Positions 19,141 to 32,730 of a stretch of DNA of 64,000 bases are shown here, in pieces. A program made the position numbers and the translations under genes. Numbering within the stretch: the stretch's first letter is position 1; the number at the start of each line of letters is the position of its first letter. This stretch comes from Planctomycetaceae bacterium (GTDB lineage: Bacteria; Planctomycetota; Phycisphaerae; Phycisphaerales; UBA1924), in the NCBI GenBank assembly GCA_021294835.1, contig JAJTDF010000001.1, positions 1 through 64,000 of the forward strand. The letters run 5' to 3'. Below the pieces are notes generated by a model. It ran no database searches and was not told the DNA's origin. It saw nothing but the letters and a program-made list of their open reading frames with translations.

Positions 19141-22100
19141 TCAGGGATGTCGCATGGCCTGTTCGATCCACAGCTGAAACGAGCGATCCCTGCGAATTGA
19201 CTCGGCTTTCCAAGCGAGCCTCACGACCGGGGGACCGGGGAACTCCGCAGCGATCGCCGCGACGCCGGCGAAGGTGCCATGGTCGGGTGCCGGTTGCGAA
19301 AGCTCAACCGGCGTGAACGTGTCCAAAATCTGAAGCATCCGCTTGGCGGCGTGGAGGGTGGTTGGGGTTGGGCCTTCGACAGCCAGGCCGATCTCGGCGC
19401 GTGTACGAGCCAGACCAAGCCTTTGGTCTGCGGGCGTGGATTCAAGATCTACGCCAAGCACGAAGGCCGTCTGCGCATGGTCGAGGGCGATAGCGTTGTC
19501 GTGCAATGCGAAACACGCCTGGGCAATCAGAGCGTGCGTGGTGGCAATGACATGACCCTGGTCGCCGAGGATGGCTCTGAAGCCGCGGAGCGAGTCAAGA
19601 AGGTGCGGCAGGGCCTCGGCCGGCTTTTCGGCATTGAGCAGGCGGATGGCGAGGGTTCGCTGGCAGGCGGCGAGCATGGTCGGATCAACGCGATCGCGGG
19701 GCAGTCGCTTCATCAGATCGAAGGCACGTGCGGCCGCGAGGACGGCCCGGGGATGATCTTCAATGAGTGAGGCTGACTCGGACGCTTCGGTGAAGCACTC
19801 AATCGCGACGTCGTCGCCACTGACGGATTGTCCGGTCCGCAGGTGGGCCTCCGCGGCGGCCAGATACCCATCGGTCGCGGCCAGATGCAGCCCGATGTCG
19901 CCACTGACCCGCGCGAGTGTGGCCAGGGTCAGCGCGGTGTGGGGGCTGTTCGGGCCGAACAGGCCGAGCTTGAGCTGGAGCAGATCGTTCCCGCGTTGAA
20001 TCAGCAGGCGGGGATCCTGATTGCTGTGCGCGGACAAGAGCGCCTGGGCGAGGGTGCGCAGGGTTTGCGGTGACGGTGCGTCGGGCGGACCGGGAACGAG
20101 GCGGGAACGCATGTCGGCCCACGTGTTCAGCGTGGCGGCAATCTCGGGATCGGTATCGCGGAGGACATTCCATCGAAGTCGCAGTTCCTGCCTGACAACA
20201 TCCTCCGCTTCGGTAAATCTGCCGGCTGCGGCAAGAGCGGCCGCCAGAGCACGAGCGGCATCGGCATGCAAGAGAACGGGCACGGACCCGGATCCGGCAC
20301 TCTGCGGCGTGCACCGGGCGACTGCGGCCTGGGCGGCGAAGATGGCCTCGGAGACCTTTTGCTGGCCGAGCAGAGCGCGGGACAGGCCCACGCCCGCCTG
20401 AACCGTCACAGTTGCGTCGATCTCGTCTGTGAGGTGGCCGAGATCAGCCAGAACCTCACGAGCGAGGGTTTCGGCTTCGACATACCGATGTCTGGCCAGC
20501 AGGGCTCCCACTTCAGTGATCATGCTCGCCAGGGCGAGCGGATTGCCGGGTCCGTAGGCCCGGATCATGAGTAATCTGGCCTCTTTGGCAGCAGCTTCAC
20601 TGAGAAAGCCCGAGCGGGTTCCCCGCAGAGCGAACACTTCCGAGAGCACGGCCTGCACGTGGGCCGCCAGCTCGGGCTGATCAGCCAGCCATCCGCCGCT
20701 CAGCGCCGCCCGGAGTTGGGCGAGATTGTGATCCGCCCAGTTCTGCGTCGCGACGAAAAGGGTCGGATCTGTCCCACCGCCTCGGGCTGGGCCCGCGTCC
20801 CGTGAAGGCAGAAGTTCCCTGAACACAAGCGAGACGGCCTGGGCTCGCAGTGCGGCCTGCTCGCGCTGCCGGCGCTCGGCGATCTCTCCGCGGCGGGCCT
20901 CGGCCGCGCGTGCCGACAGAGCGATGACGGCGCCAAGGCCCGCCATGCCGATCAGTGAGGCGGCCAGGCCCGCTGCCAGCAGGCGCGGACGTCGAAGCAG
21001 TCGCTTGGTGATGACGTACCAGGTGCTGTCGCGTCGCGCCTCGATCGGCTCTCGCTTGAGGAAGAACTCCAGATCGCGAGCAAGCGACACGGCCGTCTGG
21101 TAGCGACGGCTGCGTTCTTTGGCCAGCGACTTGAGGAGAATGGTGCAGAGATCGGTGTTCAGTCTCGGCAGCCTGGACTCGGCGGCAGCACGGGCCGGGT
21201 GCCGGGGCTCGGTGTTGCAGACGGCGTCAAAGAGGGCCGCGATGGTGGCGTGCGTGCCGTACGGCCAGGCGCCGGTCAGGGCGTGGTAGAGCATGACGCC
21301 AAGCGCGTACACGTCGACGCGGCCATCGGTCTCATCTGCGGAGAGGGTCAACTGTTCAGGGGCGGCGTACTGCGGCGTTCCTGCGAAGACGCCGGGCATG
21401 GTCAGTGAGAAGGGCGGGCGCTGAGGGGCGTTTGCATCGGAGGCGGTCTCAAGGCCGGCGAACCCGGGCTCCCGCCGGGCCAGACCGAAGTCGAGGATGT
21501 GTGGCTCGCCGGCGGAGTCGATGAGAATGTTGCCGGGCTTGAGGTCGCGGTGGATGACGCCCCGGCCGTGGGCGTATTGCACGGCGGCGCAGAGCTTGAC
21601 GAACAGGGCGAGGATCTGCTCCCGCATGTGTCGCCTTGGCTCGATCCAGCAGTCCAGCGGGATTCCATCGATCCACTCCATGGCGTATGCCGGGCGGCCG
21701 TCCGGCAGGACCATCCCGTGGAAGACGGTGACGATGTGCGGGTGACGCAGCGAGGAGGCGATCTCGATCTCGCGCTCGAAGCGGAATCGCTCGCGAAGCG
21801 TTGCCAGATTGCCGGCCGCAAGGAGTTTGATGGCGGCCGGCCGTCGTGTAGACAACTGAAAGCCCCGGTAGATGACTCCTTGGCCGCCTCTGGACATTTC
21901 CTGAAGAACCAGATAGCCGGGGATTACCGGGAGCGTCGGCCTGATCTCGGGGGGCGGGCCGCCCGGCACGGGCTCAAGGCAACTGCGGATGTCGCGTTCA
22001 AAGTGCAGATCAGCGCGGAGTTCGGCGAGCATCTCGGCACAGCGGCCGCAGGTGAGAAGATGCTGCTGGAGGTCTTCTGGTATGTGCTGCTCTCCGGCCA

Positions 22101-22176
22101 ACGCAGCCAGATGCTCTTCACCAGGGCACGGCACCTGCGCAACGATCGGTTGCTTGTGGCCGGAGGACGAGGTCAT
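19141..22176 (-). CDS. Ser/Thr protein kinase with zinc-finger N-terminus and TPR-like C-terminus
   Basis: 1011 residues. The N-terminal HLLTCGRC (about 39-46) is the His-x3-Cys-x2-Cys zinc finger of anti-sigma factors. The kinase domain (about 85-375) has GGQGVIYRG, the ATP-binding lysine in AAIKLL, HRDLKPGN and DFGLA, and GTPQYAAPEQ as P+1 loop. One transmembrane helix (about 407-428) follows, then about 580 residues of alpha-helical repeat sequence, TPR-like, placed outside the membrane or in the periplasm. Its ATG overlaps the stop of the ECF sigma gene (ATGA at 22173-22176), so the pair is a sigma/kinase-anti-sigma module in which the kinase probably controls that sigma factor. Confidence 0.9.
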   Translation of the reverse strand: MTSSSGHKQPIVAQVPCPGEEHLAALAGEQHIPEDLQQHLLTCGRCAEMLAELRADLHFERDIRSCLEPVPGGPPPEIRPTLPVIPGYLVLQEMSRGGQGVIYRGFQLSTRRPAAIKLLAAGNLATLRERFRFEREIEIASSLRHPHIVTVFHGMVLPDGRPAYAMEWIDGIPLDCWIEPRRHMREQILALFVKLCAAVQYAHGRGVIHRDLKPGNILIDSAGEPHILDFGLARREPGFAGLETASDANAPQRPPFSLTMPGVFAGTPQYAAPEQLTLSADETDGRVDVYALGVMLYHALTGAWPYGTHATIAALFDAVCNTEPRHPARAAAESRLPRLNTDLCTILLKSLAKERSRRYQTAVSLARDLEFFLKREPIEARRDSTWYVITKRLLRRPRLLAAGLAASLIGMAGLGAVIALSARAAEARRGEIAERRQREQAALRAQAVSLVFRELLPSRDAGPARGGGTDPTLFVATQNWADHNLAQLRAALSGGWLADQPELAAHVQAVLSEVFALRGTRSGFLSEAAAKEARLLMIRAYGPGNPLALASMITEVGALLARHRYVEAETLAREVLADLGHLTDEIDATVTVQAGVGLSRALLGQQKVSEAIFAAQAAVARCTPQSAGSGSVPVLLHADAARALAAALAAAGRFTEAEDVVRQELRLRWNVLRDTDPEIAATLNTWADMRSRLVPGPPDAPSPQTLRTLAQALLSAHSNQDPRLLIQRGNDLLQLKLGLFGPNSPHTALTLATLARVSGDIGLHLAATDGYLAAAEAHLRTGQSVSGDDVAIECFTEASESASLIEDHPRAVLAAARAFDLMKRLPRDRVDPTMLAACQRTLAIRLLNAEKPAEALPHLLDSLRGFRAILGDQGHVIATTHALIAQACFALHDNAIALDHAQTAFVLGVDLESTPADQRLGLARTRAEIGLAVEGPTPTTLHAAKRMLQILDTFTPVELSQPAPDHGTFAGVAAIAAEFPGPPVVRLAWKAESIRRDRSFQLWIEQAMRHP

Positions 22177-31934: not shown

Positions 31935-31968
31935 GCCAAAGGGCGGCACCGTCAGCGCTCAGAACCGA

Positions 31969-32730
31969 TCAGCCGTCACGACGGTCGTCGGTGGAACGCC
32001 GATAGATCTCACCCACCGCCTCGTCGAATGTCACGTCATCCGCTTGTTTGGGATCGAGCGGCAATCCGTTTCGTCCGGGTTCCTGAAGCTCGTCTTCGGT
32101 GAACGAATAGGTGGCAACGACCTCGTTGAGCCGCCGGCGGAGCACTTCGCGGACCGTCGCCAGTCGCCGCGAGACGGTGGGTTCTGATGTGCCCATGGCC
32201 TGGGCCACGTCCTTCCCGGAGCGGCCGTCGAGCACCCGCATGCGGTAGATCTCAAAGTCGCGGAAGTCGCACTGCTTCTCGGCCAGCCGCAGGGCGGCGT
32301 GTACCTTGGCCCGGAACATGGCCGCTTCGTACGCCTGATCAGGGGCAGGCCCGCTGGAGGCCGCCATCCAGGAGTCGTCCAGCGTGGCCGTGCGGCCGAT
32401 GCGAGGGGCTGACCCGCTGGAGGAGGGGCCGACGCCCGACCCGCCCCGCTTTTGGGCCGATCGCCGGTCGATCTCGTCACCCAGCACGTGCTTGGCGATG
32501 GCCAGCAGCCAGGTGGAGAAGCGGGCGCCCTTGGAGGGGTCGTACCGGTCGATGGAGTCGGAAAGGGCCGCGAGGGTTTCCTGAGACAGATCGCGGACGG
32601 TTTCCGGGCCGATCCGGCCCTTGCCCCACTTGGTGAGCTGAGCGCGCAGCACCGGGCCAAAGGTCTCCCAGAGTTCGAACCAGGCGGCCTGGTCCTGAGC
32701 CCGAAGCCGGGCGATGAAGCTGGTGGTCAT
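31969..32730 (-). CDS. Sigma-70 family (ECF-like) RNA polymerase sigma factor
   Basis: About 253 residues. Region 2 (FELWETFGPVLRAQL, VRDLSQETLAALSDSI, GARFSTWLLAIAKHVLGDEID) and region 4 (DFEIYRMRVLDGRSGKDVAQAMGTSEPTVSRRLA, read as two adjacent parts) are separated by a 50-residue Ser/Gly linker, longer than in most ECF factors. A 45-residue acidic tail follows region 4. It precedes the membrane kinase gene, so this is a second sigma/kinase pair in the same run of genes. ATG 32730 (MTTSFIARL) fits family starts; an in-frame ATG at 32820 would add 30 residues of unlikely sequence. Confidence 0.85.
   Translation of the reverse strand: MTTSFIARLRAQDQAAWFELWETFGPVLRAQLTKWGKGRIGPETVRDLSQETLAALSDSIDRYDPSKGARFSTWLLAIAKHVLGDEIDRRSAQKRGGSGVGPSSSGSAPRIGRTATLDDSWMAASSGPAPDQAYEAAMFRAKVHAALRLAEKQCDFRDFEIYRMRVLDGRSGKDVAQAMGTSEPTVSRRLATVREVLRRRLNEVVATYSFTEDELQEPGRNGLPLDPKQADDVTFDEAVGEIYRRSTDDRRDG

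Follow-up and report, generated by a model that had tools for sequence, protein, structure and literature searches.

Six genes stand in a row on the minus strand between positions 19141 and 32742 of the window, by which we mean the 64,000-nucleotide stretch (positions 1 to 64,000) of contig JAJTDF010000001.1 from the Planctomycetaceae bacterium assembly GCA_021294835.1, and the question raised by this locus is whether they act as one system. In order of transcription they encode a sigma factor (sigma1), a membrane kinase (kin), a Pro/Gln-rich membrane protein (PQ), a membrane protein with VWA domains (VWA-A), a second sigma factor (ECF2) and a second kinase (kinZF). The initial annotation took the run for one candidate envelope-sensing system, and all six genes are present in the order it gave. 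Gene order in related genomes indicates that the run is composed of three independent modules lying side by side, which are sigma1-kin, PQ-VWA and ECF2-kinZF. Sigma1 is probably a kinase-activated extracytoplasmic function (ECF) sigma factor running an envelope regulon with g3, a divergent gene that was missing from the initial gene list. The source genome (3.85 Mb, 170 contigs, 89% complete) was compared with 101 related genomes, 75 kin-positive and 26 kin-negative, the named relatives being Phycisphaerales; genes were called with a simple home-made caller. The 80 sigma1-kin loci used below (named genome contigs) overlap with the 101-genome set and are not an independent sample. The features of this module and its surroundings are:

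31969-32742, minus strand: sigma1, ECF-type sigma factor with regions 2 and 4 and a C-terminal extension (Pfam Sigma70_r2, r4_2).
32045-32072, minus strand: promoter-like element in the 3' end of sigma1, GAAACGGATTGCCGCTCGATCCCAAACA (strict pattern match, codon bias).
29352-31949, minus strand: kin, membrane Ser/Thr kinase (Pfam Pkinase, invariant catalytic residues, transmembrane scan, structure model).
33012-33043, plus strand: candidate g3 promoter element, GAAA at 33015-33018 and TCCCAA at 33034-33039 (29.2 bits).
33168-34214, plus strand: g3, N-terminal membrane anchor and predicted two-helix coiled-coil hairpin (co-occurrence, model).
34485-35534, plus strand: mreB, given as context only, adjoining g3 (Pfam MreB_Mbl, 1.3e-136).

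Sigma1 matches Sigma70_r2 (1.1e-10) and Sigma70_r4_2 (4.8e-6), shows no region 3, and scores 63 bits against TIGR02937, which is over the cut-off; by these profiles it is an ECF (group 4) sigma factor. The Pfam and TIGRFAM scans place ECF2 in the same type, and the ECF label, initially attached to the second sigma factor, holds for that one and extends to the first. The start of sigma1 was placed by a conserved ATG/GTG-CTCAAC, with 32730 or 32820 as alternatives. The gene lies directly upstream of kin in all 80 loci. A clear orthologue of kin is found in 75 of the 101 related genomes, comprising 61 of 61 in the family to which the source genome belongs and 14 spread over three further families of the order; in this comparison two families lack it entirely, as do five genomes of a third.

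In ECF43 sigma factors, the precedent for activation of an ECF by phosphorylation (PMC13147305, PMC8999054), the acidic RNA-polymerase-binding motif DxxD/DAED is replaced, and one Thr inside it is the phosphorylation target of the kinase encoded alongside (PMC8999054, PMC13147305, PMC8103513). The corresponding core-binding motif DxxDxxQE of sigma1 reads T-V-R-D-L-S-Q-E, with the Thr codon at 32599-32601. Position 1 is Thr in 41/41 and 80/80 sigma1 sequences, position 3 carries R, K or Q, in no case an acid (80/80), and the Asp of position 4 is kept, the variants in relatives being TVRD, TVQD, TVKD and TARD; most other sigma factors of the source genome retain an acid at position 3. Sigma1 thus shares with kinase-activated ECF sigma factors both the constant position beside a Ser/Thr kinase gene (80/80) and a weakened acidic DxxD with a conserved Ser/Thr inside. 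In all 80 loci its Thr occupies position 1, whereas the proven ECF43 phosphosite is position 3, and for this reason we do not file sigma1 as a member of ECF43.

The kinase carries the residues expected of an active Hanks-type enzyme (Lys, HxD, Asn, DFG), as judged from 41 sequences in which K218, H314-K-D316, N321, D335 and G337 are invariant. Two N-terminal transmembrane helices precede the kinase domain (ca. 175-465), a third helix spans residues 588-606, and beyond it residues 689-820 (ca. 29490-29885, minus strand) form a predicted alpha/beta domain without Pfam match, which is likely a sensor domain; the structure model has a pLDDT of about 90 in both the kinase and the 689-820 domain. 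We infer that kin would sense some condition of the envelope by way of its membrane and C-terminal regions and would phosphorylate sigma1. The most likely target is the invariant Thr in place of the first Asp of DxxD, where the phosphate would supply the negative charge needed for RNA polymerase binding. It is also possible, if clearly less probable, that kin controls sigma1 by binding, as an anti-sigma factor or scaffold, or through a phosphosite other than the invariant Thr of region 2.2. Sigma1 has further invariant Ser/Thr residues, among them the Thr of QET and the Ser/Thr of FSTW, and a conserved C-terminal extension; for EcfK of the ECF43 group, linker Thr sites matter too (PMC13147305). 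Against control by binding or at another site stand the fully conserved active site of kin and the loss or reversal of charge at position 3 combined with the invariant position 1 Thr, which is the pattern expected of phospho-activated ECF sigma factors.

The divergent gene g3 is a partner of the pair. A profile search found it in 70 of the 75 kin-positive and in 0 of the 26 kin-negative genomes (Fisher p 2e-19; the co-occurrence statistics are not corrected for phylogenetic relatedness). Within family f2 alone, four genomes have kin and g3, three have kin only, five have neither and none has g3 only. Its distribution indicates that g3 belongs with sigma1-kin; the six genes listed initially are real, and the list itself was incomplete. 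In the model of the protein an N-terminal anchor is followed by a long coiled-coil hairpin (pLDDT >90) with a beta-hairpin tip, and no curated Pfam family lies above the cut-off. Vipp1 was the first Foldseek match (E 3.2e-3), among generic coiled coils and with TM-scores of 0.24-0.35; since this score is low and the other matches are generic coiled coils, we claim no kinship of g3 with Vipp1. For g3 as a PspA/Vipp1-type protein (PspA_IM30 family, ESCRT-III-like fold) the comparison gave a weak coiled-coil resemblance, and this reading was not adopted. In 30 of 65 loci mreB is found within 3 kb of sigma1.

When the region between g3 and sigma1 was searched for dyads in 77 loci, with shuffled controls, TTGGGA-N15-TTTC came up in 46 of the 77, compared with at most 13 for the best dyad in the shuffles. 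Read toward g3, this is TGAAAy-N14-TCCCAAnnA, an ECF-like promoter. With a matrix trained on loci from the same order, 91 of the 97 distinct g3 loci show the motif upstream of the gene, between -76 and -202 (median -117) and always in the same orientation, against a shuffled background of 0.05%; the next best match in the 64 kb of the window reaches 13.8 bits, less than half the score of the g3 element. The motif is also present at g3 copies which are unlinked to sigma1 and outside the training set (genomes G011, G019, G047, G074 and G075). It was considered as the promoter of sigma1 itself and rejected, because it travels with g3 when g3 moves and points toward g3. We infer that sigma1 recognises TGAAAy-N14-TCCCAA and that the active form would transcribe g3.

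The second element lies inside the 3' end of sigma1, about 100 nt upstream of kin. Where it overlaps the codons for an RNGL peptide, 64 of 67 relatives encode the Arg by CGA; elsewhere in sigma1, CGA makes up 182 of 2098 Arg codons (8.7%; Fisher p ~4e-60). Conservation of the protein cannot explain the choice of this rare codon, and we take the site to be a genuine DNA element. Its natural reading is a promoter for kin, from which active sigma1 would transcribe the gene of its own kinase.

Candidate members of a wider regulon were sought across the genomes with the pattern TGAAAN15TCCCANNNA, the reversed pattern serving as control. The 75 kin-positive genomes gave 121 matches versus 5 for the reversed pattern, and the 26 kin-negative genomes gave 18 versus 9. 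The 40 best sites not belonging to g3 include 37 in intergenic DNA, and 26 of the 40 stand ahead of seven recurrent protein families: an uncharacterised short single-transmembrane family ending in RREIAAYIAEGS (11 sites), DUF4870 (8 sites), NfeD-like proteins (2 sites, judged by eye, no Pfam match), a two-member unknown family, Pmp3, DUF4126 and DUF4097. None of the 18 sites in kin-negative genomes precedes any of these seven. In loci L280 and L284 only about 11-20 nt lie between the end of the TCCCAA box and the start codon; this leaves no room for another promoter, so the motif must itself be the promoter there. In relatives, active sigma1 may thus also transcribe genes of the DUF4870, Pmp3, NfeD-like, DUF4126, DUF4097 and single-transmembrane families. 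Members of the last family are ca. 75-115 amino acids long, with one transmembrane helix followed by RREIAAYIAEGSMSPEQ and no Pfam match; they are found downstream of the motif in L274, L281, L287, L292, L293, L296, L297, L298, L304 and L307, and L298 has three copies in a row.

Several points weigh against sigma1 as a kinase-activated sigma factor with an envelope regulon. Its Thr occupies another motif position than the proven ECF43 site and the position 4 Asp is retained; g3 is missing from five kin-positive genomes; and across the source genome (89% complete) two strict patterns match two sites only, those before g3 and kin, so that the wider regulon is known from relatives only. A sigma factor or regulator co-inherited with the motif could also bind it in place of sigma1. 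That the motif is the site of such another factor, with g3 and sigma1-kin merely inherited together, seems improbable to us: these genomes do encode further ECF sigma factors (21 region-2 matches in the source genome), but motif enrichment follows the presence of kin across the 101 genomes, the motif occurs twice at the sigma1-kin locus itself, and its spacing to start codons fits a promoter. For the pair sigma1-kin with g3, a role as an envelope-protection response throughout the order Phycisphaerales, with a new phospho-position, its own promoter class, feedback on kin and g3 as an effector beside mreB, is a view that we favour with some reserve.

The remaining genes of the run are neighbours and not parts of the sigma1-kin-g3 system. 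They are:

26127-29315, minus strand: PQ, two transmembrane helices and a long Pro/Gln/Ser-rich coiled region (N-terminal homology in relatives).
22921-26130, minus strand: VWA-A, two VWA domains between transmembrane helices (Pfam VWA, transmembrane and motif scan).
22173-22787, minus strand: ECF2, sigma member of another sigma-kinase pair, unrelated to the first (Pfam, homologue comparison).
19141-22176, minus strand: kinZF, kinase with an N-terminal C..H-x3-C-x2-C motif, one transmembrane helix and a C-terminal TPR region (Pfam Pkinase, TPR_12).

The start/stop overlaps reported initially for the middle and last pairs are confirmed, PQ/VWA and ECF2/kinZF each sharing 4 nt. The kin-PQ gap is ca. 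36 nt, and that between VWA and ECF2 is 133 nt with the ECF2 start set from homologues, whose length of ca. 204 amino acids places it near 22787; a longer start at 23126 was rejected, as it would overlap VWA by ca. 200 nt and disagrees with homologue length. The true start of PQ may be near 29267. A terminator-like site after VWA (22918-22902) scores no better than shuffles.

VWA-A lies downstream of kin in 25 of the 54 loci with enough sequence, among the genomes compared only in the family of the window, and in 22 of these 25 loci trpD stands on the opposite strand between kin and PQ, so that the two halves are transcribed separately there. In the 23 loci where trpD separates PQ from kin, no sigma1-type motif was found upstream of PQ, and PQ-VWA was rejected as a sigma1 target. 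The arrangement trpD-PQ-VWA also occurs apart from sigma1-kin, for example in G048, and in a genome of the same genus as the window (G001) VWA-A is on a different contig. That all six genes form one envelope-sensing operon, with PQ and VWA as targets of its two kinases, is very unlikely: strand, small gaps, overlaps, the 25 adjacent loci and the possibility that in this genome the internal kin promoter drives kin, PQ and VWA together speak for it, but ECF2 and kinZF are found at 0 of the 80 sigma1-kin loci, antisense trpD usually intervenes, PQ lacks the motif and PQ-VWA also stands alone, and a single six-gene unit was rejected on synteny in relatives. Neither conservation of the whole order nor joint transcription, as initially proposed, is thus upheld; the idea of envelope sensing survives for sigma1-kin, g3 and the membrane-protein genes sharing the motif, and not for the set of six.

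VWA-A was correctly described as a VWA membrane protein, with the correction that its VWA domains number two; both carry DxSxS and SDG motifs, and transmembrane helices flank them on the N-terminal (10-57) and the C-terminal side (926-944). A paralogue with ca. 35% identity, VWA-B, is encoded in the same genome in the order VWA-B, MoxR, DUF58, BatA-VWA (contig C87, L099:10126-18255), and two families without sigma1-kin have a VWA protein of the VWA-B type followed by the same three genes. VWA-A is thus paralogous to the large VWA protein of the MoxR-DUF58-BatA/VWA locus; it differs in being paired with PQ, and no MoxR, DUF58 or BatA N-terminal domain was found in VWA-A or the scanned window neighbours. 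PQ matches no Pfam family at E 0.01, DUF4175 (PF13779) included, and three homologues have none supported at E 1, the low-complexity sequence limiting this test. A search for related loci with the VWA protein alone as query found nothing.

A kinase gene lies directly downstream of the ECF2 homologue in 19 of 20 fetched loci. The nearest ECF2-kinZF homologues, in G013 and G050, are paired and on other contigs. Region 2.2 of ECF2 reads DAAD, a case separate from sigma1. The H-x3-C-x2-C motif of kinZF, of the zf-HC2 form that marks ZAS-type anti-sigma zinc fingers, is present in the window and in most N-termini of relatives that were read, with no Pfam zinc-finger match at E 0.01. In G030 (L084) an ECF2-type pair lies ca. 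7 kb upstream of VWA-A, with a further kinase and DUF1800/DUF1501-like genes between; the gene order is different and we take this as coincidence. The source genome has a further sigma-kinase pair (C138:2276-3595) whose sigma factor is a distant ECF2 homologue. Directly beyond kinZF, on the same strand, 15582-17249 encodes an aromatic amino acid ammonia-lyase of the histidine ammonia-lyase type.

Planctomycetes have many kinase-linked ECF sigma factors, which in the reviews consulted are predicted from gene neighbourhood only, and our literature search found no paper joining Phycisphaerales with sigma factor, kinase and promoter. The groups ECF59, ECF61, ECF62 and ECF217 resemble the present pairs, ECF2-kinZF in particular, in having an ECF sigma gene beside a Ser/Thr kinase gene, and are synteny-based predictions in the review; sigma1 adds a promoter sequence, a partner gene, an envelope-themed candidate regulon and one testable phosphosite. 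The pair is tied to a membrane-anchored coiled-coil protein often encoded next to mreB, and the phospho-sigma model becomes testable outside the Proteobacteria.

The sigma-W factor of Bacillus subtilis is an ECF sigma factor for membrane-protection genes, including NfeD-family and DUF4097/PspC-type genes, and uses a -35 box of the TGAAA kind. The theme of the candidate sigma1 regulon recalls that of sigma-W, which includes pspA, yuaFGI, yqeZ-yqfAB and yvlABCD (PMC3498285). Unlike sigma1 with its kinase partner, sigma-W is held by a membrane anti-sigma factor that is cut by proteolysis, and its -10 boxes are of the CGTA type instead of TCCCAA. In regulation, sigma1-kin is closer to the ECF43 pairs EcfP-PknT of Vibrio parahaemolyticus and EcfK-PknS of Xanthomonas citri, in which an ECF sigma factor also stands beside a membrane Ser/Thr kinase with no anti-sigma gene and the DxxD/DAED motif is weakened with a conserved Thr within. 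It differs from these in phylum, in a Thr at position 1 and not 3 with a basic residue at position 3 and Asp at position 4, in the two N-terminal transmembrane helices and C-terminal alpha/beta domain of kin, and in its distinct candidate regulon and promoter.

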